Assembly (NCBI GenBank): GCA_902500995.1
Contig: CABVSR010000009.1
Location: 62,001-126,000, forward strand
Length of the DNA: 64,000 bases
From: an uncultured Nitrospira sp.
GTDB taxonomy: Bacteria > Nitrospirota > Nitrospiria > Nitrospirales > Nitrospiraceae
Direction of reading: 5' to 3'
In this document: positions 7,620 through 21,500 of the stretch, in pieces
Numbering within the stretch: the stretch's first letter is position 1
How the letters are laid out: every line of letters begins with the position of its first letter
Notes under the pieces: generated by a model
What the model was told of the DNA's origin: nothing
The model's input: only the letters and a program-made list of their open reading frames with translations
Database searches by the model: none
Position numbers and translations under genes: made by a program

Positions 7620-8006
7620 ATGATGCGTTTGCTCGCCGATTGTCGCCTTGTGCTGTTGATCCTTCCGCTGGTCATCGGGGCAACGGGCTGCGCACAGCCT
7701 GCGCTGCAGGGACATTCTCCGCAGGAAGATCTCGGGATGGGGATCGTCTCGGGAACCTTGGGCGCGCAAAGCCGGTTCGCCGTCTCCGCCAATGAGCCGT
7801 CTGCCGCATCAGTGGTGGGCCAGGTGCAAGCCGTCGAAGGCGGCGCCTATCTGGTCCGCGATGTCCGGGGCCAGGACCACCGGATTCCTCATGACGAAAA
7901 CACCAGAATCGATCGGCCGGCCCACGTGGGCGATCGCATCCAATCCTGGTTCGATCGGCATGGCCGCGCCGTGCTGATCCGAAGCCTCGATGAGGATGGG
8001 CGCTAG
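7620..8006 (+). CDS. Small lipoprotein with OB-like/DUF-type C-terminal domain
   Basis: A 128-residue lipoprotein of unknown function. The hydrophobic N-terminus ends in a lipobox-like ATGC (Cys 24). The rest has two parts: a polar linker to about residue 65 and a compact domain (VVGQVQAVEGGAYLVRDVRG to VGDRIQSWFDRHG). The latter has the rhythm of short beta-barrel proteins that describe 'ion/ligand tolerant' surface lipoproteins in Nitrospira-like genomes, but I cannot name the family. The start at 7620 follows GGAGG; a second ATG follows directly. The end overlaps the next gene by 17 bases. Confidence 0.75.
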   Translation: MMRLLADCRLVLLILPLVIGATGCAQPALQGHSPQEDLGMGIVSGTLGAQSRFAVSANEPSAASVVGQVQAVEGGAYLVRDVRGQDHRIPHDENTRIDRPAHVGDRIQSWFDRHGRAVLIRSLDEDGR

Positions 8007-8649
8007 ACCCGATCCCAGCGCCTCTCGTAGGACGATGCAACAGCCTGACTGGAATACCCGCTGGAGTCGAGCGGCGCGCGCACTGTTTCCCTTCGTAGTG
8101 GCGGCAGGCCTGATGGCCGTGATGCCGCCTGCCAGCAGGGTCGCATTCGACCCGGTCATGGAGGTGGTCCGGCGGCCTTCAGCCGAGCCCATCGCTTCGC
8201 TCATTGCGACCTATGCCGAACAATATGCGCTGGATCCTGCGCTGCTGCAGGCGATCATCAAGGTCGAGTCGAATTTTAACTCGGACGCTGTCTCTTCAAA
8301 GGGGGCGATCGGTCTCATGCAGCTGATGCCGCTCACGGCCGCGGCGTTTCATGTGTTGGATCCCTTCGATCCGAAGGACAACATTCGTGGAGGCGCAGCG
8401 CTGCTTCGCGGGCTGTTGGACCGGTTCGGGGGCGACCTCTCGTTGGCCCTGGCAGCCTATCACCTCGGTGAAGCGCGGGTCCGGCAGGCCATCGGCGCGC
8501 CGGCTCTCCCTGCGACCCAATTGTATGTCAACCGGGTGCTCGGCCAGTATGATCGCTTTCGTGCCGGAACCAGCCGGCTTCCCTCGCGCGTGACGACGCG
8601 CCGGCAGGAGAGCCATGCAGACTGGTCGCGATCGCAGAGGCCGGAATAA
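7990..8649 (+). CDS. Membrane-anchored lytic murein transglycosylase (SLT domain)
   Basis: A 219-residue protein with a Slt70-type lysozyme-like domain. The catalytic glutamate is Glu 93 in the IIKVESNFNSDAVSSKGAIG block, followed by GLMQLMP and the AALLRGLLDRFGGDLSLAL and AAYHLGEARV helices. These are the conserved ES, GLMQ and AYNxG-like motifs, with AYHLGE at the last. A hydrophobic segment at residues about 30-47 should be a signal anchor, so the enzyme acts on peptidoglycan in the periplasm. The start may be the ATG at 7990 (overlapping the lipoprotein gene) or the ATG at 8035, which would still leave the anchor intact. Confidence 0.9.
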   Translation: MRMGARPDPSASRRTMQQPDWNTRWSRAARALFPFVVAAGLMAVMPPASRVAFDPVMEVVRRPSAEPIASLIATYAEQYALDPALLQAIIKVESNFNSDAVSSKGAIGLMQLMPLTAAAFHVLDPFDPKDNIRGGAALLRGLLDRFGGDLSLALAAYHLGEARVRQAIGAPALPATQLYVNRVLGQYDRFRAGTSRLPSRVTTRRQESHADWSRSQRPE

Positions 8650-8797
8650 ACGGCCCGAGTGTGGAACGCAAGGCCGCCGGTTCACTCTGAGTACACGGCT
8701 GCTGCTCGCCGGTTGCATTTTCCTCCGGAACGGGGTAGGGACATCTGCGTTGAGCGAGACTCACTACTGAAAGAGCGATGGCGATCTTGAGGATGCG

Positions 8798-9952
8798 ATG
8801 AAGAAGAGCGATCGTACAGCCCGGCTGGCCCAATCCGATATCCGTGCCATGACCCTGGCCTGCGCGAAGGTCAACGGAATCAATATGTCGCAAGGCGTCT
8901 GCGACACTCCCGTGCCGACGGTGGTCGTGGAAGGCGCGCAGCGAGCGATGGCACAAGGGCACAATATCTATGCTCGCTTTGACGGGATTGCGGAGCTGCG
9001 GCAGGCTATCGCCGGGAAGCTGGCCGATTACAATCGGATCACCGCCGATCCGGAAACCCATATTACCGTCAGCGCCGGCGCGACCGGGTCATTCCAAGCC
9101 ACCTGCATGGCGTTGCTCAATCCCGGCGACGAAGTGATTCTGTTTGAACCGTTTTACGCCTATCACGTCCAGGCGATCCTCGCTGTGGAAGGCGTGCCCC
9201 GCTATGTAACGATGCGGCCGCCGGATTGGACGCTGGATATGCAGGCGCTGGAGCAGGCCATGACGTCCAGGACCAAGGCCATTGTGGTCAATACGCCGGG
9301 GAATCCATCCGGCAAGGTGTTCACGCGGCGTGAACTGGAGCACATCGCCGAGGTCGCCTGCCGCCGTGATCTCCTGGTGATCACCGACGAAATCTATGAG
9401 TATTTTGTCTTTGACGGGCGGAAACATGTCAGCATGGCCTCGCTGCCGGGCATGGCCGACCGGACCATCACCATCGGCGGCTATTCAAAAACCTTCAGCA
9501 TCACCGGCTGGCGCATCGGCTACAGCGTGGCGGAAGCCTCATGGGCGAAGGCCATCGGCGCCATGAGTGATGTGTTGTATGTCTGCGCCCCCACGCCGTT
9601 ACAGCATGGGGTCGCCGCCGGCATTCGTGAACTGGGTCCGGCATTTTACAAGGAGCTCGCCCGCGAGCATCAGCACAAGCGGGATCGCTTCTGCGGAGCC
9701 TTGGCTAAGGCAGGATTGCCTCCGGCCCTGCCGCAAGGAGCCTACTACGTACTGGCGGATGTGTCGCGACTTCCCGGGACGACCAGCCGGGAGCGCGCGA
9801 TGTATCTGCTGGACAAGACCGGCGTGGCGGGCGTGCCGGGCGAGGCCTTTTTCGAAGGGCCTGAGGGCAGTCGCTTTATGCGGTTTTGTATGGCAAAAAC
9901 CGATGACGACCTGGAGCGAGCCAGTCAGGCGATCGAACGATTCACGTCATGA
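8798..9952 (+). CDS. PLP-dependent class I/II aminotransferase
   Basis: A 384-residue fold-type I aminotransferase of the aspartate aminotransferase superfamily. The PLP-binding lysine is Lys 231 in the GGYSKTFSITGWRIGY motif. Also visible are NTPGNPSGKVF (conserved Asn), ITDEIYEYFVFDG (Asp and Tyr that hold the cofactor) and the C-terminal FMRFCMAKTDDDL, whose first Arg binds the substrate carboxylate. The SQGVCDTPVP N-terminal segment is like that of MalY/PatA-type and kynurenine-type enzymes. The amino-acid substrate cannot be fixed from sequence. GAGG precedes the ATG. Confidence 0.92.
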   Translation: MKKSDRTARLAQSDIRAMTLACAKVNGINMSQGVCDTPVPTVVVEGAQRAMAQGHNIYARFDGIAELRQAIAGKLADYNRITADPETHITVSAGATGSFQATCMALLNPGDEVILFEPFYAYHVQAILAVEGVPRYVTMRPPDWTLDMQALEQAMTSRTKAIVVNTPGNPSGKVFTRRELEHIAEVACRRDLLVITDEIYEYFVFDGRKHVSMASLPGMADRTITIGGYSKTFSITGWRIGYSVAEASWAKAIGAMSDVLYVCAPTPLQHGVAAGIRELGPAFYKELAREHQHKRDRFCGALAKAGLPPALPQGAYYVLADVSRLPGTTSRERAMYLLDKTGVAGVPGEAFFEGPEGSRFMRFCMAKTDDDLERASQAIERFTS

Positions 9953-9974
9953 GTCGCTGAAACAATTCGCATCT

Positions 9975-11393
9975 TCATCGTGCTTGCCAGGATGCGTTTC
10001 TCGTCATCGTTCCCCACGTTGCTTGTTTCCCGCACACCCAACGATACAGGCCGATCAATTTCCACACCGAATTCAGTTGGCGGTATCCGAAGTTCTCCAG
10101 GATGGCCGCCAGCAATAATTTCAGCACGTCGCGCTGATCGGGGTAGACGTGGAAGGACATTTCTTCAAGTAAGAGCGCACTCACTGACAATAAGATGCCG
10201 AGGCCGATCGCTGCGGCGAGCAGGATCAGCCACATCTGCATCGAGACCAATCCCATGATGAAGCTGAGGATCAGAAAGCAATAGCCTAAGACCTCGATCG
10301 CCGGTCCGATCCACTCAAACACAGCCATAAAGGGAAAGGCCAGCCATCCGATCGTCCCGCCTTTGGGATGGCACAAGAGATCGACGTTTTGTGTCAGGCT
10401 CTCGCACAACCCGCGTTGCCAGCGGACACGCTGATTTTTCAGCGTGCGCAGATCTTCCGGCGCTTCGGTCCAGCAAACGGAATCAGGGACGAAGGTAATG
10501 CGATACGGCTTATCGCCCAGCCGCAGATGGCGATGCAGGCGCACAACCAGTTCCATGTCTTCCCCGATTGTATCCGATCGGTAGCCTCCCACCGTAACAA
10601 CCGCTTCTTTCCGAAAAATCCCGAATGCGCCGGAAATGATCAGCATGGCGTTCATGGGTGACCAACCCAGCCGTCCGAAGAGAAAGGCGCGAAGGTATTC
10701 CACGATTTGGAACAGGGCCAGCAGATTTGCGGGTAATCCGATCTTGGTCAAGAACCCGTTTTCGACGCGGCAGCCGTTCGCGATGCGCACGGTTCCTCCG
10801 CTGGCCACCGTGCGATGGTCGTCTAAAAACGGTTGCACGGCCCGCCGCAGACTGTCCGGCTGCAGAATGGAATCCGCATCGATGCAGCAGAACAGCGGAT
10901 ACAGCGACAGATTGATGCCCGCGTTCAGAGAGTCGGCCTTGCCGCCGTTCGCTTTATCGATGACGCGCAGATTGGCGTGGAGCGATGAATGATAGATGGC
11001 TCGAATGTCCGCCGTCGGCAGCTGGGTGTTGCAGGCCTCGGGAAACGGAAACAGATCAAATTCTTTGCAGAGCACATCCATCGTGGCATCCTTTGATCCA
11101 TCGTTGACCACGACAATTTCAAATTCCGAATAGCTGAGTTGCAGCAGCGAGCGGACGGAGCCCGCGATGGTGAGGGCCTCGTTATAGGCGGGTACCAGGA
11201 TGCTGATCTGCGGTTCGAATCCGGTGTAGCTGTGCGGCAGGCTTTCGAGCACACGCTCCTGCAGATATCGCCGCAAGTGCACGATGGCGATGAGATCCAG
11301 CATCAAGTATCCGGCGGTCAGGCCGAGAAAGTAGAGCAGAAATAGCCATTCAGCAGTTGAGATGAGCGTGTCTAACCACATCGATCCATGCAT
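9975..11393 (-). CDS. Membrane processive glycosyltransferase, family 2 (PgaC/HasA-like)
   Basis: A 472-residue inner-membrane GT2 synthase. N-terminal membrane helix at about residues 12-38. The catalytic domain begins ISILVPAYNEA (62-72), then VVVNDGSKD (first Asp pair, 95-102), CCIDADS (DxD, 169-175), TIGEDME (catalytic base region, 275-281) and QRVRWQRG (321-328), the QxxRW motif of processive beta-glycan synthases. Three or four C-terminal helices follow (about 345-425). Enzymes of this layout polymerise and export glycans such as poly-N-acetylglucosamine. It is divergent from a glycosidase-like/outer-membrane/deacetylase operon, which supports an exopolysaccharide role. The start at 11393 has GGAG adjacent; an ATG at 11381 is an alternative. 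Confidence 0.92.
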   Translation of the reverse strand: MHGSMWLDTLISTAEWLFLLYFLGLTAGYLMLDLIAIVHLRRYLQERVLESLPHSYTGFEPQISILVPAYNEALTIAGSVRSLLQLSYSEFEIVVVNDGSKDATMDVLCKEFDLFPFPEACNTQLPTADIRAIYHSSLHANLRVIDKANGGKADSLNAGINLSLYPLFCCIDADSILQPDSLRRAVQPFLDDHRTVASGGTVRIANGCRVENGFLTKIGLPANLLALFQIVEYLRAFLFGRLGWSPMNAMLIISGAFGIFRKEAVVTVGGYRSDTIGEDMELVVRLHRHLRLGDKPYRITFVPDSVCWTEAPEDLRTLKNQRVRWQRGLCESLTQNVDLLCHPKGGTIGWLAFPFMAVFEWIGPAIEVLGYCFLILSFIMGLVSMQMWLILLAAAIGLGILLSVSALLLEEMSFHVYPDQRDVLKLLLAAILENFGYRQLNSVWKLIGLYRWVCGKQATWGTMTRNASWQAR

Positions 11394-11430
11394 CTCCGGA
11401 GACGGCGGTGTTCCTCAAACCAGGCATGCC

Positions 11431-13041
11431 GTGAAATCTGCCGGTTCTCTGCGCAAACAGGTAGCAGGCCGGTGGCTTGTCGTCACGGTGCTGCTCGGTG
11501 CTGTGGTCGGCCCCATCCTGTGGCTTCCTGCGGCACAGGCGGCCGACATTCGCCTGCCCTCGCCCATTCCTCCCACGGTCCATGAGATCGAACTCACTTA
11601 TGTCGGGGAAGGTTCCGACCCAACCGTGACATTCCGCGGCCCTGTGCCGACAGCGGCCTCTCTTCCTTATCGACCGTTTGTGCCCATTCTTGAACTGCGC
11701 CCGGGGCTAGGGGCAGTCCAGCTTTTCGGTCCTTGCCAGGGGCAGTCGGTTCGAACTGATTCCCGTCTTGAGCTGAATTGGACTACCGGAGAAACGGGGC
11801 GCTGCGGGCAGCGTATCGAGCTGCGTCCGGCCGGAAAGCCGATGGATCTCATGTCCTACCAGATGCTGCGGCTGCGAGGGCAGGCTACCGGCCAGGTGGT
11901 GGTGGCCGTGGAAGATGTGTCCGGTCATGAGCGTGAACACAATCATCCTCTTGCTACCGTGACCGGGACATTCGATCTCTCCATTCCGCTGAAAGAGATC
12001 GGTCGCGGGGTGGACCTTCGACACCTGACGGCGCTCGTCGTGTCCTCTGAGGGACCAAGCGGTTGGATTCAGTTTGAGCAGATGGCGGTGGCGCAAGGTG
12101 GATCGGTGAATAGGCGACCCGTCGGCACCGGTTTCTGGGTGTGGAACTACCGCGCGGCGATACGGGATTCACAGATGCTGTTGGCCACCTGCCGTGGGCA
12201 AGGCTGCTCCAGGATGCTCATTCAAATGCCGTCCCTCAACGATGATGAGACGATCTGGCGAGACTATGCGCAGCTCTTGGCCCTGGTGCAGGAGGCCGGA
12301 ATCGAGGCGCTGGCGTTGGACGGGTATCCCGAAGCCATTCAGGAACCTCAGGTCTTGGCCGATAAGGTACGGAGACTGCTCCAGCTCGTGCGGCCTGGTT
12401 CGGTATCCGGCATACAGCTCGATATTGAGCCCTATCTCCTGCCGGGGTTTCTTGAAGATGACACGCAGCTCCGCCGGTATCTCGGCACGATCGAGACGGT
12501 GAAGGCTGCCGTGGGCGGCCGTGCCAAACTGTCGATGGTGATTCCCTTCTGGCTTGCAACACCGGCCGTCGGCGGCCGGCCTTTGGCCTATGCCGTCATG
12601 GATCGGGCCGATGAAGTGGCGGTGATGAGCTACCGTACCGATCTCGATGAAGTGCAGGACATCGCCGAAGACATCCTGAGATATGGCGATCTGATCGACA
12701 AGGCGGTGTGGTTGGCCGTTGAGACGACCCGATTGCCGGTTGAGCAGCATGTCGTCTTGCGGCGGGACCTGCGGCCTGATCGCGCCGATGTCCTCCTGGA
12801 TCGCGAACACCAAGTGCTACGAGGGAAGCCAATCCCTGAGTTGGTCGCGCCGACCCGGCCTGGAGAATGGTTTCGCATCCATCACCGATTTACGGTCAGG
12901 CCTGAACAACTGACCTTTGCCGGGCGTCCCCGTGCCGAGGTGTGCAAGGCCATCAGACAGATATTGGAGACCACATCCCATCCCAGTTTTGCCGGGGTGA
13001 TTATTCACGATCTCGATGGATTCCGAGCCCTCTCCGACTAG
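11431..13041 (+). CDS. Exported glycoside-hydrolase-like (TIM-barrel) protein
   Basis: About 536 residues. The GTG at 11431 gives a standard signal peptide (KSAGSLRKQ, hydrophobic core, cleavage AQA-AD). An ATG at 11362 is in frame but overlaps the divergent GT2 start and adds a non-signal extension. Residues about 60-235 look like a beta-sandwich (carbohydrate-binding type). The rest has the strand order of a GH18-like barrel: FWVWNYRAAI, IEALALDGYP, GIQLDIEPYL (acidic pair on a strand end, as in catalytic DxE motifs), KLSMVIPFWL and DEVAVMSYRTD. I read it as a periplasmic glycan hydrolase or binder for the polymer made by the neighbouring synthase; the family was not searched. Confidence 0.75.
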   Translation: MKSAGSLRKQVAGRWLVVTVLLGAVVGPILWLPAAQAADIRLPSPIPPTVHEIELTYVGEGSDPTVTFRGPVPTAASLPYRPFVPILELRPGLGAVQLFGPCQGQSVRTDSRLELNWTTGETGRCGQRIELRPAGKPMDLMSYQMLRLRGQATGQVVVAVEDVSGHEREHNHPLATVTGTFDLSIPLKEIGRGVDLRHLTALVVSSEGPSGWIQFEQMAVAQGGSVNRRPVGTGFWVWNYRAAIRDSQMLLATCRGQGCSRMLIQMPSLNDDETIWRDYAQLLALVQEAGIEALALDGYPEAIQEPQVLADKVRRLLQLVRPGSVSGIQLDIEPYLLPGFLEDDTQLRRYLGTIETVKAAVGGRAKLSMVIPFWLATPAVGGRPLAYAVMDRADEVAVMSYRTDLDEVQDIAEDILRYGDLIDKAVWLAVETTRLPVEQHVVLRRDLRPDRADVLLDREHQVLRGKPIPELVAPTRPGEWFRIHHRFTVRPEQLTFAGRPRAEVCKAIRQILETTSHPSFAGVIIHDLDGFRALSD

Positions 13042-13072
13042 AGTCGCACATGTCGGGAGAACAGCGTCACGG

Positions 13073-15439
13073 ATGAACGACCCTTCCAGATGGATCGATC
13101 GACGAAGGTCGGTAGCCGGTTTGCTGGCGGGCATTGTGCTCGCCGTGGGGTGGATCGCCGCGCCCGCCGTGATGATTGCCGCCATGGCGGAGTCCTCTCC
13201 GCGCCAGATTCTGCAGCAAGCCAGAGCGTTGGAGGAGGAGAAACGGTACGAGGAAGCCATTGCGGCCTACCGGCAATACCTCCAGGCCAAACCTGACCAT
13301 GACGACGTGCGCGCATCAGTGGCCAAGCTTCTTTCCTGGCAGGGCCAATGGGACGACGCCGCGGCCGGCTATCGCGACCTCCTCACCCGCCACCCCCTCG
13401 ATCACGACATTCGGGTGGGTCTCGCCCAAGTCCTTTCGTGGCAGAAGCAGTACGAACTGGCGCGAGAGGAGTACGAGCGTGTTCTGCAGGACGAACCGGA
13501 CCATGTCGAGGCGCTGACGGGGCTCGGCAATGTGTTGTTATGGAGCGGCCATCAGGCACAGGCCGTTCCGTATTATGAGCGAGTCGTGGCGGAGACCGGT
13601 GACGCGGAGGTTGCGGCGCGTCTGCAAGCCTTGAAGTCTGCCTCCGGCTCGCCGGCTGTTCCCGCCTCTTCGTCAGAGCCGGCTTCCCCTCGCGGTAATG
13701 AGCCGGTCACATCTGACGCCGCACAGGCGTTGCAGCGGGGAGGGCGATTGGAAATCATGCGTCAGTATGACGACGCGATCGCCGTCTATCGCGAGGAACT
13801 GGAGCGGTCGCCCGGGGATGATGACGTACGCGCTGCCTTGGCGCGGGTGCTCTCCTGGCAAGGCGTCCATGCGGAAGCCACGGCGTTATACCGTGAGATT
13901 CTGGCGCGCCATCCCCAGGATCAGGATATCCGTGTGGCGCTGGGGCAGGTTCTCTCCTGGCAGCAGCAATTCGAGGAGTCGGGCCGCCTGTACCATGAAG
14001 CGCTCCGCTCCGACCCGACGCTGGTAGAGGCCCGGCGCGGTCTCGCCGATCTGGCCTATTGGCAAGGCAATCACTCAGAAGCGGTTCAGCGCTATGAAGC
14101 CTTGTTTGCCGAAACCCATGATCCCGACATCGACGCGCAGTTGAAGACCATTCGATCAGAATTGCGCGCGACCGAGCCACCAGTTGTCGAGCGCCCGGTG
14201 CTCACTCACGCCCCACAGGAAACGAAGGTGCGGGATCTCGCAGCCGCCGTGGAGCAAGTCACGAAATTCGAGGTGGCCAAGCAGTATCACGACGCAGAGG
14301 GCGTCTATCGCGACGTCTTGCGGCAGCACCCGGACAACGATGAGATCCGAGGTGCGCTGGCCCGTGTCCTCTCATGGCAGGGGTCTCATGCGGAAGCGAC
14401 GAGCTTGTATCGAGAGGTGCTGGCACGCCACCCTGACGATCAGGACGTTCGCCTCGCGCTGGCGCAGGTTCTGTCGTGGCAACAACAGTTTGATGAAGCA
14501 GGACGGTTGTATGGGGAGGTCTTGCAGGCCGAGCCAGGACAGATCGATGCTCGTCGCGGACTGGCGGAGGTTGCCCATTGGCGGGGCGACCGGTCCGAAG
14601 CGTTGCAGCGATACGAGGCCCTGCTGGCCGATACGCATGATCCTGCCATCGAGCAGCAGATTCGCGCCGTGAAATCGGAATTGCTCGTGTCGCCTCGGGC
14701 CGTGGTAGGACAAGGCCTGCCGGGGTTGCGTCTTCCCTACCGGGACTATGCCAAGATCGGGTACGGCCATTATTCCTATACCAAGAATCAGCCGGACGAA
14801 CGGGACGCCTTGTTTGAACTCGCCAAATCGATCGGCAATCAAACGCTGGTGCTGCGGGTTGAACCGATCAATCGCTTCGGATTTCACGACACGCCCATGG
14901 CCGCCGAACTGTATAGCCCCTTGTGGTCGAGAGCCTGGGGATATGTTGCGGCGCAAGCCACGGTCAATCCGAAATTTTCGCCGAACTATTCCTTTGTCGG
15001 TGAAGTGGCGCAAGGTCTGGGAGGATGGCACGCCTCACTGGCACCCGTTGAAGTGTCGTTCGGCTACCGGCGATTAAATTACAAACAGGACAACATCGAT
15101 CTGTTGATGCCGGGGCTCACGATTTTTCTCCCCTTCAATCTATGGCTGACGGAGAAGATCTATCTGATTCCGGACACAGGGGCGGTCACACTGGCTTCGC
15201 AACTCACTTGGCGGCCAACTGATCGCCTGCAGTTCTTCGCCTCCGGCTCGTTCGGTACGTCAGGCGAACGCATCGTCGCGGAACAGGATTTTATCCGGGT
15301 GGGAAGTCATACGATTCAGGGCGGCGTCACGTTCCCGATCAACGAACGATTCTCCGCTGAAATCGGCGGGTACTACGAAGACCGGGGATTTCTCTATGTC
15401 CGGCGGGGCGGGAACTTCAACCTCATCTATCATTGGTAG
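13073..15439 (+). CDS. TPR protein with C-terminal YaiO-type outer-membrane beta-barrel
   Basis: A 788-residue outer-membrane protein. After a signal peptide (hydrophobic about 16-38) come three similar blocks of about 147 residues, each made of TPRs (LSWQG, LARHP, VLSWQQQF recur) and ending in a QRYEALxAxTHDP-type helix. The C-terminal 240 residues are beta-rich with alternating aromatic residues (YAKIGYGHYSYTKN, GYRRLNYKQDNID, RPTDRLQFFASGSFG) and end in ...FNLIYHW, an aromatic C-terminal signature for outer-membrane insertion. The plan equals that of PgaA/BcsC-like exporters: periplasmic TPRs that bind the glycan and a pore. Start chosen at ATG 13073; the gene begins 32 bases after the glycosidase-like gene. 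Confidence 0.85.
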   Translation: MNDPSRWIDRRRSVAGLLAGIVLAVGWIAAPAVMIAAMAESSPRQILQQARALEEEKRYEEAIAAYRQYLQAKPDHDDVRASVAKLLSWQGQWDDAAAGYRDLLTRHPLDHDIRVGLAQVLSWQKQYELAREEYERVLQDEPDHVEALTGLGNVLLWSGHQAQAVPYYERVVAETGDAEVAARLQALKSASGSPAVPASSSEPASPRGNEPVTSDAAQALQRGGRLEIMRQYDDAIAVYREELERSPGDDDVRAALARVLSWQGVHAEATALYREILARHPQDQDIRVALGQVLSWQQQFEESGRLYHEALRSDPTLVEARRGLADLAYWQGNHSEAVQRYEALFAETHDPDIDAQLKTIRSELRATEPPVVERPVLTHAPQETKVRDLAAAVEQVTKFEVAKQYHDAEGVYRDVLRQHPDNDEIRGALARVLSWQGSHAEATSLYREVLARHPDDQDVRLALAQVLSWQQQFDEAGRLYGEVLQAEPGQIDARRGLAEVAHWRGDRSEALQRYEALLADTHDPAIEQQIRAVKSELLVSPRAVVGQGLPGLRLPYRDYAKIGYGHYSYTKNQPDERDALFELAKSIGNQTLVLRVEPINRFGFHDTPMAAELYSPLWSRAWGYVAAQATVNPKFSPNYSFVGEVAQGLGGWHASLAPVEVSFGYRRLNYKQDNIDLLMPGLTIFLPFNLWLTEKIYLIPDTGAVTLASQLTWRPTDRLQFFASGSFGTSGERIVAEQDFIRVGSHTIQGGVTFPINERFSAEIGGYYEDRGFLYVRRGGNFNLIYHW

Positions 15440-15443
15440 GGCT

Positions 15444-17366
15444 ATGCAACGAGCCACCCTTGTGCGCCTATCAGGTCTGGCCTTGCTGGGTGTGTCTCTC
15501 GTCATCGGCATCCGGATCCTCATCGGGCCTTCCTCCGTCCAGCACGTCGAGGTTCCGGAGAAAGACTTTTACCGTTTCCCAGGGGTTTCGGGTCCCGGCG
15601 AGGCGGCGGTGCTACCTGCCCGCGTGCCGGCTGCGTGGACGAATTATGAGCAGGGTTCGGCGAGTCGGGTGGCGATTCTCTTGACCGATCCGGAGTCCTC
15701 ATGGCTCGGGTTGGCTCATGGATTCAAATCCATCGGCATTCCCTTCCGTATCACCCGGAATGTCCATGAGGCCCTGGCGCATAAGGTGGTACTGGTCTAT
15801 CCCATGATCTCCGGGAAGGTCTTGAGTCCGGATGCGCTACAAGCCCTGGCGGAATTTCCGAAGACAGGCGGGACACTCATCGGCGTACAGGTCCTAGGCG
15901 GCGGACTGAACCAGGTCTTCGGGTTTCGTGATGCCGTTGCCTCGCGCCAGCGTTACGATGTGACGTTGGTCCAGGCGGATCCGCTGCTGGCGGACCTGAC
16001 CGACCCCCGGGAGCGCCAGTTGCGGGTCGGCATCCGTGGCAAAGGTATCGAAGTGATGGGAACCTACGGCTACACCGAAGCGTTGACCCCTCTCGCGCGT
16101 TTCGACGACGGGACCGCCGCCATCACGCAGACCGCTCATGGACCTGGCCGAGCCTATGCGATTGGACTCGACCTCGGCTTTCTCCTGCTGAAGGGATACA
16201 ACAATCGTGGCGAGGAGCTGGTCAAGACATTCGACAATGAGTTCGACCCGACTCTGGATGTCTGGTTGCGGCTGATCAAATCGATGTATCGCGCGGCGCA
16301 GGAGGGAGCCGTGACCTTGGGGACGGTGCCCTTTGGAAAGTCGTTGTCCGTCATGCTGACCCATGATGTCGATTTTACGCAGTCCATCAAAAACGCGGTT
16401 GACTATGCAGAGTATGAAAAAAGCCAAGGGTTGGTCGGGACCTACTTTATCCAGGTGAAGTACATTCGCGATTATAACGACGACATCTTTTTTAACGACG
16501 AGGGCGTGCGGTATGTGAAGCGACTGGCGGATCTGGGGATGGAGTTGGGAAGTCATACGATCGCGCATTCACGGGTGTTTGATCAATTTCCGATGGGGAC
16601 CGGCCGGGAAACCTATCCGTCGTATGCCCCGTTCGTGAAAGATCGGGCGACGGCCTACAATGCGAGTATTCTGGGTGAATTGCGAGTGAGTAAGTTTCTG
16701 ATCGATCACTTTTCAGGGCAGACGATCGTGTCATTCAGGCCCGGCGAATTGTCCAATCCGTTCGGGCTCCCGCAAGCACTCGTGGCGACGGGGTATCGGT
16801 ACAGTTCGACCGCGACGGCGAATAACTCGTTGACCCACTTGCCGTATCAATTGAATTACGATCGGCTCACTGACAGTGAGGTCGAGATTTTCGAGTTTCC
16901 CGTGACCATCGAAGATGAAGCGTTGCCGAAGATGGGGGACCGTCTTCCGCAGGCCCTGGACGTGGCAAGCCGTATCAGTCGGTACGGGGGCTCCGTCGTG
17001 ATACTCATTCATCCGAATATTCTCGATCATAAGCTCGCCTTCGAGAAAGGATTCGTCGAAGCCGTGCGTCCTTATGCGTGGTTCGGTTCGGTGGGAGAGT
17101 TCGGCCGATGGTGGGCGGCACGCAATCGCGTGGAGATCGACGTCGCCCGTGACCCGACTGCCATGCGAGTGACATTAAAGGTGCCCATCTCTGTGGCCGG
17201 TCTCACGCTTGAAATACCGGAGGGATGGCAAGTGGCGCGCTCCGGCAACTCTGCGCGGGGAGTGGAGCAACATGGAACGGTTGTGACGTTCGCCGAATTG
17301 CAGGGCACCCGCACCGTTCTATTCAGGCCTCGTTCTTCGAGCCCGTCGGCCGAACGCCGTTCCTAA
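15444..17366 (+). CDS. Polysaccharide deacetylase (CE4/NodB-like) with N-terminal domain
   Basis: A 640-residue protein, signal anchor at about residues 8-27. Residues 60-290 form an alpha/beta domain (VAILLTDPESSWLG, KVVLVYPMISGKVLS) like the glutamine-amidotransferase-type domains seen before some deacetylases. The NodB-type domain follows: metal and catalytic motif THDVDF (near 306-311), GSHTIAHS (near 369-376, HxxxH metal ligands), SFRPGELSNP (near 430) and VVILIHPN (near 516-523). These match CE4 motifs 1, 2, 3 and 5. The last 80 residues look like a small beta domain. It should de-N-acetylate the exported glycan. Starts 4 bases after the porin gene stop, so operonic. Confidence 0.88.
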   Translation: MQRATLVRLSGLALLGVSLVIGIRILIGPSSVQHVEVPEKDFYRFPGVSGPGEAAVLPARVPAAWTNYEQGSASRVAILLTDPESSWLGLAHGFKSIGIPFRITRNVHEALAHKVVLVYPMISGKVLSPDALQALAEFPKTGGTLIGVQVLGGGLNQVFGFRDAVASRQRYDVTLVQADPLLADLTDPRERQLRVGIRGKGIEVMGTYGYTEALTPLARFDDGTAAITQTAHGPGRAYAIGLDLGFLLLKGYNNRGEELVKTFDNEFDPTLDVWLRLIKSMYRAAQEGAVTLGTVPFGKSLSVMLTHDVDFTQSIKNAVDYAEYEKSQGLVGTYFIQVKYIRDYNDDIFFNDEGVRYVKRLADLGMELGSHTIAHSRVFDQFPMGTGRETYPSYAPFVKDRATAYNASILGELRVSKFLIDHFSGQTIVSFRPGELSNPFGLPQALVATGYRYSSTATANNSLTHLPYQLNYDRLTDSEVEIFEFPVTIEDEALPKMGDRLPQALDVASRISRYGGSVVILIHPNILDHKLAFEKGFVEAVRPYAWFGSVGEFGRWWAARNRVEIDVARDPTAMRVTLKVPISVAGLTLEIPEGWQVARSGNSARGVEQHGTVVTFAELQGTRTVLFRPRSSSPSAERRS

Positions 17367-17433
17367 CCCGCGTCCTAAACATCTTTAACAAGGGGGTTGT
17401 ATTCGGGAGTGACGTGCGTAGTGGGGAAACGCG

Positions 17434-18525
17434 CTAGGCTGTGCGCGCCGGATGGTGAGCCTTCGCGTTCAATTGTGCCAGAAATGGAAGCAACTGTTCT
17501 TGTGACTCGACGGTGGTGAGGGCATTGTGTAGTCTGGCGAGCCGCTGAGAGTTCATCCAAGGAAGATTTGCGAGTGCTTCGGCGGCCCGGTAGCGCACCC
17601 ACCAATGTTCGTCATTCAACAGGGCGATGAGTCTCGCTTCATCGTCCTCGATCCCCACTTTCCCCAATGCCGATGCCGCTTGAAGCCGGACATACCAGGT
17701 CGGATGGGAGAGGTGTGTCCGGATCGTGCCGACATCTCTGGGATCGCTGCACTCCCCGAACAGGAACAGGCAGGCCGCCAACAGGTCATCCGGTGGCGAT
17801 CCGTTCTGCAGCAGCGCCCTCAAGGGCGGCAATGCGTGCCGACTTTGCGTGGCGGCCAGGTGACGAATCAACCGCGAGCCTATTGCCGGGCTGGCGAGAC
17901 AGGCGGCTTTGGCAATGGCTTCGGCCGCGATGTCCGCGCCAGCGGGTTCGAATATGGCGACGACTTTGAGCGGAGACCAATCCGTTCGCATGCTGATCAC
18001 GGGGATAATCAGCGGAACGGCGGCGCTCGCGTCGATATGCAGGAGGGCTTTGGCGGCGACCAATGAAAGAAACGCATTCTCGGCCTGCAGCATCGCGGTG
18101 AGGTCGTTCCAGATGGACCGTTCCTGAAGGTGACCAAGCGTCACGATCGCAAGCAATCGGCGGCGGAGCAGTCGGGCGTGAAGCAGTCCCTTGGCGAACC
18201 GGTCCGACCCCGTTCGCCGGGCCAGCTCCCGCAAATTTGCGCGTGCGTCTCCACGAATGGATTCGTAACAGTGATTCCAGAGGTAGAGCAGGACGAGATG
18301 GTCCCGAGTGGTGAGCGGAGGCAGTGTATCAGGCACCTCAGCGACACATTCAGTCAGTAAGGGTCGCCAGGTTTCGGTGACGGCGCGCCGCCGTCGCTCC
18401 TTGTTGCGGCGTATGTACCGAAGCGAAAGAATACCGACCAAGAGCAGGCTTACGGCGGAATAGATGGAAATGGCGGCAATGGCGCCGATGCGAAGCGTCA
18501 GGTCTGACTGGTCGAGGCCCGACAT
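17434..18525 (-). CDS. Membrane-anchored HEAT-repeat protein
   Basis: A 363-residue protein. One transmembrane helix at about residues 12-36 is followed by a very basic stretch (RRNKERRRR), so the bulk is cytoplasmic. Residues about 115-350 contain HEAT/PBS-lyase-type helical repeats; the clearest are the WYVRLQAASALGKVGIEDD and WWVRYRAAEALANLPWM units near the C-terminus, which carry the R..AA.ALG signature. It is a protein-binding scaffold. Position: between the polysaccharide deacetylase (convergent, 67 bases away) and a response regulator gene on the same strand that starts 414 bases upstream. HEAT proteins of this type sit near GT2 genes in several bacteria, so a role in the glycan locus is a reasonable inference. 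Confidence 0.85.
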   Translation of the reverse strand: MSGLDQSDLTLRIGAIAAISIYSAVSLLLVGILSLRYIRRNKERRRRAVTETWRPLLTECVAEVPDTLPPLTTRDHLVLLYLWNHCYESIRGDARANLRELARRTGSDRFAKGLLHARLLRRRLLAIVTLGHLQERSIWNDLTAMLQAENAFLSLVAAKALLHIDASAAVPLIIPVISMRTDWSPLKVVAIFEPAGADIAAEAIAKAACLASPAIGSRLIRHLAATQSRHALPPLRALLQNGSPPDDLLAACLFLFGECSDPRDVGTIRTHLSHPTWYVRLQAASALGKVGIEDDEARLIALLNDEHWWVRYRAAEALANLPWMNSQRLARLHNALTTVESQEQLLPFLAQLNAKAHHPARTA

Positions 18526-18543
18526 GCGATTCTTGGGCGCCGC

Positions 18544-18939
18544 TTATGCCGCCTGACCGACAAACCGTTTCAGCCGATTGGTCAATTCCTGCGGGTTGAA
18601 GGGCTTGATCATGTAATCGTTGGCGCCGTTCTCCAAGGCGCGCTTGATATCATGGGCGCTTCCATCGGCAGTCAACATGACGATCGGGACCTTTTTCCAG
18701 CCCTCGCGTTTTCTGATCACGGTGAGCACCTGCAGTCCGCTCAAGAACGGCAACATCACGTCCAGCAGTACGAGGTTTGGAGGGGCGATCGTATTGACAA
18801 GCTCCTGCGCCTGCCGGCCGTCTTTGGCGTGCACCACCTGATAACTTGCCCGCTCCAGAAGAAATTTCAAGAGGCTTGCCGTGTCTTCTTCATCTTCAAC
18901 CATGAGAACCCTGAGATTGGGACTGTCGGGGCTTTCCAT
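18544..18939 (-). CDS. Single-domain response regulator
   Basis: A 131-residue CheY-like receiver. Acidic pocket EDEED (residues 15-19), phosphoryl acceptor Asp 60 (NLVLLDVMLP), switch Thr in IVMLTADG and Lys in YMIKPFNP. There is no output domain. The ATG at 18939 follows CAGGAG at the right distance; an in-frame start at 18990 gives an extra 17 residues without a ribosome site. Only 18 bases separate its stop from the start of the HEAT gene downstream, so both are probably one transcript. Confidence 0.9.
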   Translation of the reverse strand: MESPDSPNLRVLMVEDEEDTASLLKFLLERASYQVVHAKDGRQAQELVNTIAPPNLVLLDVMLPFLSGLQVLTVIRKREGWKKVPIVMLTADGSAHDIKRALENGANDYMIKPFNPQELTNRLKRFVGQAA

Positions 18940-19080
18940 AGAGGCGCTCCTGAGGTGGCGAAGGGTGAAGGGGTTAGTCGTTTGTAGCACGAATTATTAC
19001 AAATGCACGAATACTTCCTCTTTTTCCTGCAGGATGAGCCGCGATTGTGGCGCATGCGCCGCGCGAAAATCCGGTCTGCG

Positions 19081-19416
19081 TTATTCGTAAGCGATCTCAA
19101 CCCGGGCCAGATACGACGCCAGCGTCGTCAGGTCACGGCGGATGGATGCTTCATCGGCGACTTTTGCAGCCTGCTCCACTCGACCCGCAATGGTCGTCAT
19201 GCCGTGAAAGCCATAACTGCCGCTCACACCCTTCATGCCATGAGCGACTTGCCTGATACAGTCAAAGTCTCTGGCGGCGATGGCTTCGGTCATGGTCGCC
19301 ACTTCTTTGTTCCGATTGGCCATGAATCGTGGAATCAAGGGTTCAAACGCAGAGTCCACGAACACGGCAATCGGTCCGGCATCGCAATCGGGGGGAGCGG
19401 GGGTTGCATCGTTCAT
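19081..19416 (-). CDS. Hpt (histidine phosphotransfer) protein
   Basis: A 111-residue four-helix Hpt domain. The phosphorylated histidine is His 59 in the AHGMKGVSGSYGF motif (HxxKG...). Such proteins carry phosphoryl groups between hybrid histidine kinases and response regulators. The ATG at 19416 has AAGGAG eight bases upstream and overlaps the stop of the upstream receiver gene by 4 bases (ATGA-type junction on the minus strand), so the two are coupled. No histidine kinase is encoded in the window. Confidence 0.9.
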   Translation of the reverse strand: MNDATPAPPDCDAGPIAVFVDSAFEPLIPRFMANRNKEVATMTEAIAARDFDCIRQVAHGMKGVSGSYGFHGMTTIAGRVEQAAKVADEASIRRDLTTLASYLARVEIAYE

Positions 19417-19808
19417 GCGGCGGACTCCTTGTCCGGTGAGCTGACCGCATAACGTTGAATCGCCTCCAGCAGAGCGGCTTTTTTCAGCGGTTTGGTCAGA
19501 TGGGCGGTGAAGCCGGCGGCCTGGGCCTTCTCAATGTCTGCCGCATCGGTATGGCCGGTCAGGGCGATAACCGGTGTCGCGTCGCGCTGTTGCTCCTGTT
19601 CCCATCGTCTGATGAGGCGGACCGCCTCATAGCCGTCCATGATCGGCATCTGGATATCCATGAACACCAGGTCGTACCGCCCGGCCTGGAATTTCTCGAC
19701 TCCCACGGCGCCCTGTTCGGCCAATTCGATCCGATAAGGCAGGGCCTTCAGCAAAACGGTGACGAGCATGCGATTATCTTCCATATCTTCAACGAATAGA
19801 ATATTCAC
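19413..19808 (-). CDS. Single-domain response regulator
   Basis: A receiver of about 131 residues. From the start used here: ILFVEDMEDN (acidic pocket), phosphoryl acceptor Asp near residue 51 (LVFMDIQMPIMDGYEA), VIALTGHT and TKPLKKAALL (switch Thr and Lys). The LVFMDIQMPxMDG form is typical of receivers from phosphorelays with hybrid kinases, which fits the coupled Hpt gene. A GTG at 19808 has CAGGAG six bases upstream and yields the usual N-terminus (NILFVED); the ATG at 19823 lies before that ribosome site and is less likely. Confidence 0.9.
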   Translation of the reverse strand: MNILFVEDMEDNRMLVTVLLKALPYRIELAEQGAVGVEKFQAGRYDLVFMDIQMPIMDGYEAVRLIRRWEQEQQRDATPVIALTGHTDAADIEKAQAAGFTAHLTKPLKKAALLEAIQRYAVSSPDKESAA

Positions 19809-20135
19809 CTGCGTCTCCTGCATGAGTCTGTCGACGATGGCGATCGCCTGAGGCGCTGGCCCCGCCGGATCATGGCGCCCCGGACCAGTGGCGCGGTACA
19901 GATCTACCCTGCCAATTCTTTATCGGTAGAGGCCGCCCGACCTTGAGATGGTATGACGGTGGAAGCCATCCGCATGATTGTACGCCTGTCGCGTTGTGGC
20001 GGAGAGTAAGGCTCACTCAGACTGATTCAGGACGATTGGTGGATATGAGCAAAAAGTAATTGCGATCTTGAGCAGGCTGGGTGTGCATGGTATGTAAAGT
20101 ATTGCCCGAAAACATCCGGGAGGTGGATTGTAAGT
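19809..20135. other. Intergenic region, divergent promoters
   Basis: 327 bases between the receiver gene (minus) and a lipoprotein gene (plus). It must hold promoters for both directions. One candidate for the plus direction is listed separately. No reading frame longer than a few dozen codons, no RNA gene and no long repeat was seen. Confidence 0.5.
20068..20096 (+). promoter_or_regulatory. Probable sigma-70-type promoter of the lipoprotein gene
   Basis: TTGAGC (20068-20073), a spacer of exactly 17 bases and TATGTA (20091-20096) stand 39 bases before the start codon at 20136, leaving room for the GGGAGGTGG ribosome site. Four of six positions match in each box. Confidence 0.4.
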
Positions 20136-20621
20136 ATGTCTATCATGAAAAAGTTTCGGTGGCCTGTTCTCGCGGTCGGTCTGAGCCTGCTGAGTCTTCA
20201 GGGTTGCAGTCATGCGCCAAGCCTTCAAGAAGCCGCTGGGTCTGAGCCCGCGCCCGGGGAAATGTCTTCGACTCGCGCGGAGCATGCCGTTCTGGCCGGT
20301 GAATGGGAATACGAAGAAGACGGGGTGGTTGTCCCCTTGAGGTTAGACCGATTCGGAAACGGGTCCTATGATTTCAAGGACGGGCGCTTTCGCACCGATC
20401 TGTTTGCGGACCACCGATGGGCCGGGGCCTGGGCTCAACGAGAGAATGATCGGGAAGGTGGTTTCGAGATTACCTTGTCCCACGACTATTCGGAAGGAGA
20501 GGGGCGCTGGTGGTACACGCGTATCGAAGCCGACAAGGCTCCGACCAAGGCCGGCGGACGGTTTCATGTGATGAAGGTGCAATCGATCGTGGATAATCAG
20601 TCATGGCCGCCCACGCACTGA
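20136..20621 (+). CDS. Hypothetical lipoprotein
   Basis: A 161-residue lipoprotein with lipobox LQGC (Cys 24). The mature region starts with a polar linker, then a compact domain rich in W, Y and G (LAGEWEYEEDGVVVPLRLD, GNGSYDFKDGRF, DHRWAGAWAQREND, EGRWWYTRIEAD). The alternation of 'G.W' and 'G.G.Y' units suggests a small lipocalin-like or eight-stranded beta barrel, as in DUF families of copper- or stress-related envelope proteins; I cannot assign one. Convergent with the next gene, with only three bases between the stops. Confidence 0.75.
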   Translation: MSIMKKFRWPVLAVGLSLLSLQGCSHAPSLQEAAGSEPAPGEMSSTRAEHAVLAGEWEYEEDGVVVPLRLDRFGNGSYDFKDGRFRTDLFADHRWAGAWAQRENDREGGFEITLSHDYSEGEGRWWYTRIEADKAPTKAGGRFHVMKVQSIVDNQSWPPTH

Positions 20622-20624
20622 GTG

Positions 20625-21500
20625 TTACGATTGCTCATCCCGATCAGGATCGATCCGTTCATACACCGCCGAGTAGTCCACCTCTCCCAAGCCTGCAGCG
20701 ATCGTCTCGATGAGCAATGATCGTATTCCCTGCAGCCCGGCCGTCGAAAGCCGAGCCGTCTCTGCGGCGCCCAGCGCAAGTTCCACATCCTTGAGCAGAT
20801 GCCTGGTGGAGAAGTTCGGGTTGGCATAGTGGCGTTGCTCCAACCGGGGGAGTTTCTTCTCGAACATCGGCGCGTAGAGCGCGCTCTTTCGCACCACACC
20901 CATAAAGTCTTCAGCCTTGACGCCGCCTCGGCGGACCAACCCGAGGCTCAGCGCGAATGCGGCCATTTCCGCTGCGATGAGCTGGTTGAGCGCAAGCTTC
21001 ATCACGGCTGCCTTTCCGACCGGCCCGACCAGGCACACCTCTTCTCCCAGGCTGCGCAATAACGGAGCCCAGGTCTCGTACTGCTCTCGCGTCGCACCGA
21101 CCATGACCAGCAGCGTGCCGGCCTTGGCTTCCGCAATACTGCCCAGTACGGGCGCTTCAAGGTAGGAACCACCCAAGCGCGTCAATTCGTTCTCGATCGA
21201 GCAGCTCTCGCCCGGTCCGATCGTACCCATCTGGATGATCGTCCGCCCCTGGATCGCGGGGCTGGTGAGCGGATGGAACAACACCGCACGGATCGCCGCG
21301 GCATCCGAGAGTAGCAGGAGCGCGACGTCGGCTGCCGACAGCGCCTCCGCCGCGGTCGGAGCGATAGGGATGCCTCGCTGCCGGAGGGCATGCGTTTTTT
21401 CGACGGACCGGTTATAGGCGGTGACAGCGTGGCCTGTGGCATGGAGCCGTTCCGCCACGCCTTGGCCCAACAATCCTGTGCCCAACAAGGCCACGTTCAT
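20625..21500 (-). CDS. NAD(P)-dependent beta-hydroxyacid dehydrogenase (HIBADH/GLYR family)
   Basis: A 291-residue enzyme of the 3-hydroxyisobutyrate dehydrogenase family. The Rossmann loop is NVALLGTGLLGQGVAERL at the N-terminus; the Arg of AYNRS (residue 31) suggests preference for NADPH. The signature blocks GGSYLEAPVLGSIAEAKAG (substrate binding, with the usual 'APV.G') and GKAAVMKLALNQ (catalytic Lys about residue 171) are present. Related enzymes reduce glyoxylate, succinic semialdehyde or tartronate semialdehyde, so it probably detoxifies or recycles a small oxoacid. Lies 66 bases downstream of the inositol-monophosphatase-like gene on the same strand. Confidence 0.9.
   Translation of the reverse strand: MNVALLGTGLLGQGVAERLHATGHAVTAYNRSVEKTHALRQRGIPIAPTAAEALSAADVALLLLSDAAAIRAVLFHPLTSPAIQGRTIIQMGTIGPGESCSIENELTRLGGSYLEAPVLGSIAEAKAGTLLVMVGATREQYETWAPLLRSLGEEVCLVGPVGKAAVMKLALNQLIAAEMAAFALSLGLVRRGGVKAEDFMGVVRKSALYAPMFEKKLPRLEQRHYANPNFSTRHLLKDVELALGAAETARLSTAGLQGIRSLLIETIAAGLGEVDYSAVYERIDPDRDEQS

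Follow-up and report, generated by a model that had tools for sequence, protein, structure and literature searches.

A probable phosphorelay-linked, synthase-dependent glycan secretion locus in Nitrospira, of a family different from Pga

We analyzed a polysaccharide secretion locus of an uncultured, nitrite-oxidizing Nitrospira sp. (Nitrospiraceae), located in a 64,000-nucleotide stretch of contig CABVSR010000009.1 (positions 62,001 to 126,000 of the forward strand, assembly GCA_902500995.1; hereafter the window), and consider it probable that this locus encodes a phosphorelay-linked, synthase-dependent exopolysaccharide secretion system of a family different from Pga. A preliminary description of positions 9975-17366 had recognized a membrane glycosyltransferase of family GT2, a protein with tetratricopeptide repeats (TPR) and a beta-barrel, a NodB-type deacetylase, and a TIM-barrel glycosidase-like protein. 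The open reading frames (ORFs) and domain scans agree with these assignments and with the gene order given: all four genes (A to D) are open frames; the GT2 gene A occupies the minus strand, and the plus strand carries B, C, and D as three overlapping, divergently oriented ORFs, such that the hydrolase and deacetylase are encoded separately with the porin gene between them. The suggestion of a variant glycan secretion system that depends on a synthase is upheld as well, as is conservation of the locus within Nitrospiraceae. The interval described left out the genes for a HEAT-repeat protein and a phosphorelay, and the functional unit reaches to about position 19823.

The relationships of the synthase point away from Pga. 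Protein A (9975..11381, minus strand; longest ORF 9975-11393) matches PF13641 (GT2), carries the processive-GT2 motifs DAD, ED, and QRVRW, and has transmembrane (TM) helices flanking the catalytic domain on both sides. Its top NCBIfam match is PgaC_IcaA (2e-42), which is also the best match of the HEAT-linked GT2s of other phyla, but against the PgaC/IcaA equivalog TIGR03937 it scores 145.5 bits, below the 422-bit cut-off. Moreover, A is 23% identical to E. coli PgaC, compared with 35-46% to HEAT-linked GT2s of Alphaproteobacteria, Bacillota, Deinococcota, and haloarchaea. A phylogenetic tree unites the HEAT-linked GT2s and separates them from PgaC and YaiP, with a support of 92/98 that lies under the starred level of the tool and with long outgroup branches. 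Judged by sequence, A belongs to a separate GT2 family that is partnered with HEAT proteins.

Protein C (13016..15439, plus strand) consists of three TPR blocks, of which many relatives have two, followed by a C-terminal outer-membrane beta-barrel, and here too the resemblance is to another family. The barrel (nt about 14747-15436) scores 77 bits against the YaiO model TIGR04390 (cut-off 32), while the match of C to the PgaA-type porin model TIGR03939 reaches 93.4 bits of a required 366.65 and has its best stretch in the TPR part, and the barrel is YaiO-type and not PgaA-type. C occurs in two lengths among close relatives (window positions 13016-14700 and L037, L039, L041, L043, and L046), one of about 800 amino acids with three TPR blocks and the other of about 610-640 amino acids with two blocks, which suggests gain or loss of whole TPR blocks.

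Beyond D, on the minus strand, lie the genes that the preliminary description did not cover. These encode a TM-anchored HEAT-repeat protein (E, 17434..18525), a single-domain response regulator that is conserved beside E (F, 18544..18990), a histidine phosphotransfer (Hpt) protein (19081..19416), and a second single-domain response regulator (19413..19823) whose gene overlaps that of Hpt.

The conservation of gene order, which had been proposed as a check, was found in relatives: the order of A, the divergent genes B, C, and D, and then E and a response regulator gene on the opposite strand is kept in 14 Nitrospira loci wherever the contig is long enough, with identities of about 59-93% for A-D. 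This recurrence indicates that the arrangement is not due to chance. Many loci of a second genus-level group show A, divergent B and C, and then HEAT, without D, which in this group is absent, located downstream of HEAT, or found on another contig beside unrelated genes. Draft genomes make up most of the relatives. In the window's genus, 29 genomes were compared: 21 carry both B and YaiO, and 8 carry neither. The pattern of A departs from that of B in two of these genomes and the pattern of E in one, the exceptions being G028 and G002, where the contigs around the locus are short, and G017, whose GT2 is a different one (46% identical). YaiO is single-copy in every YaiO-bearing genome of this set, and as it never occurs in more than one copy, the barrel appears to be dedicated to the A-E system. 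Linkage in relatives, on which the preliminary description had made its reading depend, holds for D in part: it is linked to B in 21 of the 25 genomes that have both and unlinked in four (G146, G215, G227, and G295), and the core often occurs without it. In G031, A, B, E, and the response regulator gene stay in one group, and C and D form a pair on a separate contig. Conservation with the system is higher for E and the response regulator and Hpt genes than for D. The HEAT gene adjoins the GT2 gene in G017, G047, and G288, whereas in the window it lies about 6 kb from A at the opposite end of the block; G288, from another Nitrospirota family, holds a single cluster of YaiO-TPR, HEAT, GT2, a phosphatase-like gene, and B-like ORFs. 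We conclude that the core of the system is A, C, E, and usually B, and that D is an optional add-on.

The same HEAT-GT2 core occurs in other phyla. A tblastn search of a plasmid collection, from which all cross-phylum examples were drawn, returned 14 records with GT2s of the A family (32-47% identity). The gene immediately before GT2 encodes a HEAT protein in Mesorhizobium, Erythrobacter, Deinococcus, Paenibacillus, Planococcus, Bacteroides, three haloarchaea, and Devosia, and weakly so in Emticicia. YaiO-bearing loci are those of Devosia (two response regulators, B-like, response regulator, TPR/YaiO, HEAT, GT2, Hpt), Mesorhizobium (histidine kinase, two response regulators, YaiO, HEAT, GT2, Hpt) and Erythrobacter (response regulator, TPR-YaiO, HEAT, GT2); Deinococcus has TPR, HEAT, and GT2, Paenibacillus and Planococcus each have a B-like gene upstream of HEAT and GT2, the haloarchaeal loci have a response regulator upstream of the pair, and Bacteroides has HEAT and GT2. 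YaiO genes were seen in diderm loci only, as an export role predicts; the Deinococcus TPR protein gave no YaiO match, and the Bacteroides locus has no annotated YaiO gene. In the loci of Deinococcus, Planococcus, and Bacteroides, HEAT-GT2 has no adjoining response regulator or Hpt genes. The haloarchaeon Halosolutus (L135, 5519-11568) carries a cluster of a response regulator, HEAT, GT2, a sugar-phosphate nucleotidyltransferase, and glmS, the last two of which would probably supply UDP-N-acetylglucosamine (UDP-GlcNAc), and the cluster is a candidate locus for an archaeal polymer of amino sugars. Taken together, it is quite possible that the GT2 and the membrane-anchored HEAT protein form the constant part of an undescribed and very widespread class of glycan export systems in diderm and monoderm bacteria and in archaea, usually controlled by a phosphorelay instead of c-di-GMP, to which modules are added by lineage. 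Tentatively, these modules could be YaiO/TPR for diderms, a new glycosidase family with an LDxEP-type motif, and, in Nitrospira, a deacetylase similar to PelADA and Agd3 (see below).

Two of the monoderm clusters hold further genes. In Planococcus (L136, 2053-10407), the B-like glycosidase, HEAT, and GT2 genes are accompanied by genes for a protein with a polyphosphate-polymerase domain, DUF4956, and CotH, and in Paenibacillus (L132, 2287-11404) by two large unknown genes. Such neighbors, together with the presence of HEAT-GT2 pairs in monoderms and archaea that have no outer-membrane part, would fit a GT2/HEAT pair that makes a cell-wall or surface glycoconjugate, with B, C, and D linked to it for other reasons. 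We regard this as improbable, given the TPR/YaiO genes in diderm loci (Alphaproteobacteria and Nitrospirota), the TPR gene in Deinococcus, and the inheritance of the block as a unit. A role in peptidoglycan or the S-layer was dropped, as no peptidoglycan-binding domain was matched and the genes track GT2/YaiO.

Protein B (11431..13041, plus strand; longest ORF from 11362) carries a signal peptide and gave no significant Pfam or NCBIfam match in the domain scans. In an AlphaFold2 model built from 15 orthologs (residues numbered on the ORF from 11362), a beta-sandwich resembling a carbohydrate-binding module (CBM) at about residues 115-245 (nt about 11570-12095) precedes an alternating beta/alpha barrel at residues 255-559 (nt about 12124-13038). 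The barrel has a predicted local distance difference test score (pLDDT) of at least 75 in most ten-residue blocks of 255-420 and is mostly confident to about residue 455. Foldseek matched the sandwich to CBM11/29/30 modules and the barrel to TIM-barrel glycosidases of GH10, GH18 (SleL), and GH84, which confirms the earlier TIM-barrel assignment. The sole solved relative by sequence is the Cellulomonas fimi protein 10yv (E 3e-8), which has the LDxEP motif in common with B. An alignment of 12 B-like proteins, which come from Nitrospirota, Alphaproteobacteria, and Bacillota, shows that W261, G321, G350, D354, E356, P357, M422, Y424, and H549 are invariant (12/12) and that E454 is retained in nearly all. 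The acidic residues D354 and E356 lie at the end of barrel strand 4, as in GH18 and clan GH-A, and it is reasonable to propose E356, with E454 (strand 7) or Y424 (strand 6), as candidate catalytic residues. From the model, B is predicted to be a TIM-barrel glycosidase-like protein. It lies outside GH153 and, with no Pfam or NCBIfam family matched, has no assigned glycoside hydrolase (GH) family. Relatives with the invariant LDxEP-type motif adjoin A-type synthases in other phyla, with B-like genes found in the HEAT-GT2 loci of Devosia, Paenibacillus, and Planococcus. In one genome (G033; L103, 9075-10760), which also lacks D, a single in-frame TAG interrupts B, reflecting a pseudogene or an assembly error.

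Protein D (15444..17366, plus strand; longest ORF from 15396) has an N-terminal TM anchor, an alpha/beta domain, a NodB-like carbohydrate esterase (CE) domain, and a beta-rich C-terminus. It matches PF01522 (NodB-type) weakly, at E 1e-4 in the protein scan and above cut-off in the genome search. The additional N-terminal domain noted earlier is real, and is GATase1/ThuA-like and similar to the GH42 trimerization domain: it matches the BgaB trimerization domain profile (0.0013), a homolog matches Glyco_hydro_42M (1.5e-4), and Foldseek matched it to ThuA/GATase proteins from a weak AlphaFold2 model (pLDDT 48), of which we used only these N-domain matches, as they agree with the sequence matches. 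The CE domain shows the motifs THDVD (MT1), HTIAH, RPGE (MT3, SFRPGE), and LIHPN in this order, conserved down to 43% identity, except that RPGE is slightly altered in two copies, with one variant reading RAGE, and that LIHPN is missing from a shortened copy. The catalytic histidine (LIHPN) sits C-terminal to the other three motifs and is followed by the beta-rich tail, in contrast to PgaB and IcaB, where the catalytic (MT5) histidine is N-terminal to MT1-4 (PMC7229062). This layout is that of Agd3 of Aspergillus (CE18/CBM87) and PelADA of Bacillus cereus (CE26/CBM114), which share a three-domain plan of alpha/beta N domain, NodB-like CE domain, and beta-rich C domain with a C-terminal catalytic histidine (PMC13254593, PMC7229062). 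The N domain of Agd3 is likewise GATase1-like, and PelADA, as D, has a single TM anchor and no fused hydrolase (PMC13254593). At the sequence level, D gave no profile match to Agd3 (6NWZ) or other deacetylase structures at E<=1 in a PDB search, neither Agd3 nor PelADA was among the 50 best Foldseek matches of the poor D model, and a search of PDB sequences with the CE domain alone returned nothing useful. D is thus PelADA/Agd3-like by layout, with a sequence too distant for CE18 or CE26. It also differs from PelADA and Agd3 in reading THDVD at MT1 and SFRPGE at MT3.

This layout, including the anchor, raises the alternative of a system akin to Pel or galactosaminogalactan, in which D would deacetylate a polymer rich in alpha-1,4-linked N-acetylgalactosamine and B would be the matching galactosaminidase. 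The Pel synthase PelF is GT4-type and A-type GT2s are inverting, so the partner synthase of D is of a different kind, and the scan of the locus genes showed none resembling PelD/E/F/G. Together with the lack of a sequence-level match of D to Agd3 or another deacetylase structure, this makes the alternative unlikely.

We found no relatives of D in the plasmid collection. In one Nitrospira metagenome-assembled genome (L038, 14212-16041), frameshifts break D, again a pseudogene or an assembly error. In G248 (L107, 6573-12105), genes for an ABC transporter ATPase and permease are directly followed by homologs of B (32%) and D (43-47%), and neither an A-type GT2 nor a YaiO gene lies near the pair, showing that glycosidase and deacetylase together can accompany another transporter.

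Returning to a secretion system distinct from Pga, we infer its biochemical activities, the identity of its polymer, the direction of its regulation, and a contact between the HEAT protein and the synthase from the gene content, domains, motifs, linkage, and joint presence or absence that we observed. In the proposed scheme, A would polymerize a beta-linked polymer, likeliest of N-acetylhexosamine, from a UDP-sugar and extrude it through the inner membrane, while the membrane-anchored E would bind or gate A from the cytoplasmic side, and F, Hpt, and the second response regulator would relay an on/off signal, replacing PgaD and c-di-GMP. The inner-membrane-anchored D may strip acetyl groups from the emerging chain, held by its GATase-like domain; the exported B would bind the chain and trim or cleave it, and the TPR scaffold and YaiO barrel of C would guide it over the outer membrane. 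The inverting GT2, the deacetylase, and glmS in one relative make a beta-linked polymer of amino sugars the likeliest product.

Several observations weigh against this scheme. A single haloarchaeal locus provides the glmS link, and the specificity of the GT2 cannot be read from its sequence. D is often missing, which means that deacetylation is not essential to the family, and a B-like gene is absent from the Mesorhizobium, Erythrobacter, Deinococcus, and haloarchaeal HEAT-GT2 loci, implying that the B step is not universal. E and the response regulator and Hpt genes lie on the strand opposite to B-C-D in the window, and co-transcription is not implied. Finally, the Fisher p of 2e-7 for the co-occurrence of B and YaiO ignores shared ancestry.

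With respect to the boundaries of the genes, A probably starts at 11381, B at about 11431 (GTG), and D at 15444. When the longest ORFs are taken, A and B overlap by about 30 bases in head-to-head orientation (11362-11393), probably a start-codon artefact, and the conservation of the B N-terminus in this interval probably reflects the start of A on the opposite strand. The GTG at 11431 gives B a normal-looking signal peptide, and a short, divergent intergenic interval (11382..11430) separates the two likely starts. No Rfam elements were found in 8000-21000 of the window and no tRNA in the 64-kb window, and a tandem-repeat search of the locus was empty. The GC content is 58-63% throughout the first 30 kb of the window, and thus gives no compositional sign of a recent island.

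In wastewater and drinking-water systems, Nitrospira grows in dense flocs and biofilms, and the locus is a candidate source of matrix polymer in part of the genus. If our reading is true, the known synthase-dependent polysaccharide systems would be joined by a further class, built on the HEAT-GT2 core of haloarchaea, Bacillota, Deinococcota, Bacteroidota, and Proteobacteria, with HEAT as a new kind of synthase partner and with phosphorelay control. A glycosidase family would be defined as well, one that has an apparent solved relative (10yv) and a clear hypothesis for its catalytic site.

Of the known systems, E. coli pgaABCD is the one with which the preliminary description had equated these parts, as a Pga or poly-N-acetylglucosamine locus with PgaB split into deacetylase and hydrolase genes. 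The part list is indeed the same by function (membrane GT2, TPR with outer-membrane barrel, NodB-like deacetylase, TIM-barrel hydrolase), PgaC_IcaA is the top match of A, and a UDP-GlcNAc link is possible in the haloarchaeal locus. However, E. coli PgaB combines CE4 and GH153 in one chain, whereas the Nitrospira locus encodes deacetylase and hydrolase in separate genes that belong to other families, alongside a YaiO barrel, HEAT, and response regulator/Hpt proteins. The proposed profile searches gave a PF01522 match for D and no GHL13/GH153 domain (PF14883) in the whole genome, with a positive E. coli control; the locus proteins gave no BLAST match to PgaA, PgaB, or PgaD, although a small divergent PgaD could be missed, and profile searches of the PDB with B and D returned no PgaB. 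Every Pga-defining sequence feature that we tested failed, including the score and identity of A, the barrel type, and the motif order of D. A split Pga locus is thus unlikely, and the comparison holds as an analogy: the locus works like Pga without being Pga.

The E. coli yaiO-yaiX-yaiP-yaiS locus also has a YaiO barrel gene near glycosyltransferase and putative deacetylase genes, but it has no TPR, HEAT, or glycosidase, YaiP is only 23% identical to A, and YaiX is disrupted by IS2 in E. coli K-12. We found no description or name of the RR-YaiO-HEAT-GT2-Hpt system in a search of mostly open-access literature. Bundalovic-Torma et al. reported environmental pga-like loci in which pgaC is rearranged and pgaB and pgaD are absent (PMC7112194); these might include HEAT/YaiO/GT2 loci. 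Further close counterparts are the plasmid loci of Mesorhizobium ciceri, Devosia, and Erythrobacter. These differ from Nitrospira in having no deacetylase and in forming a single-strand operon with HEAT immediately before GT2, but share HEAT, TPR/YaiO, and response regulators, with Hpt in Mesorhizobium and Devosia, a GT2 that is 41-45% identical to A in Mesorhizobium and Erythrobacter, and a B homolog in Devosia.

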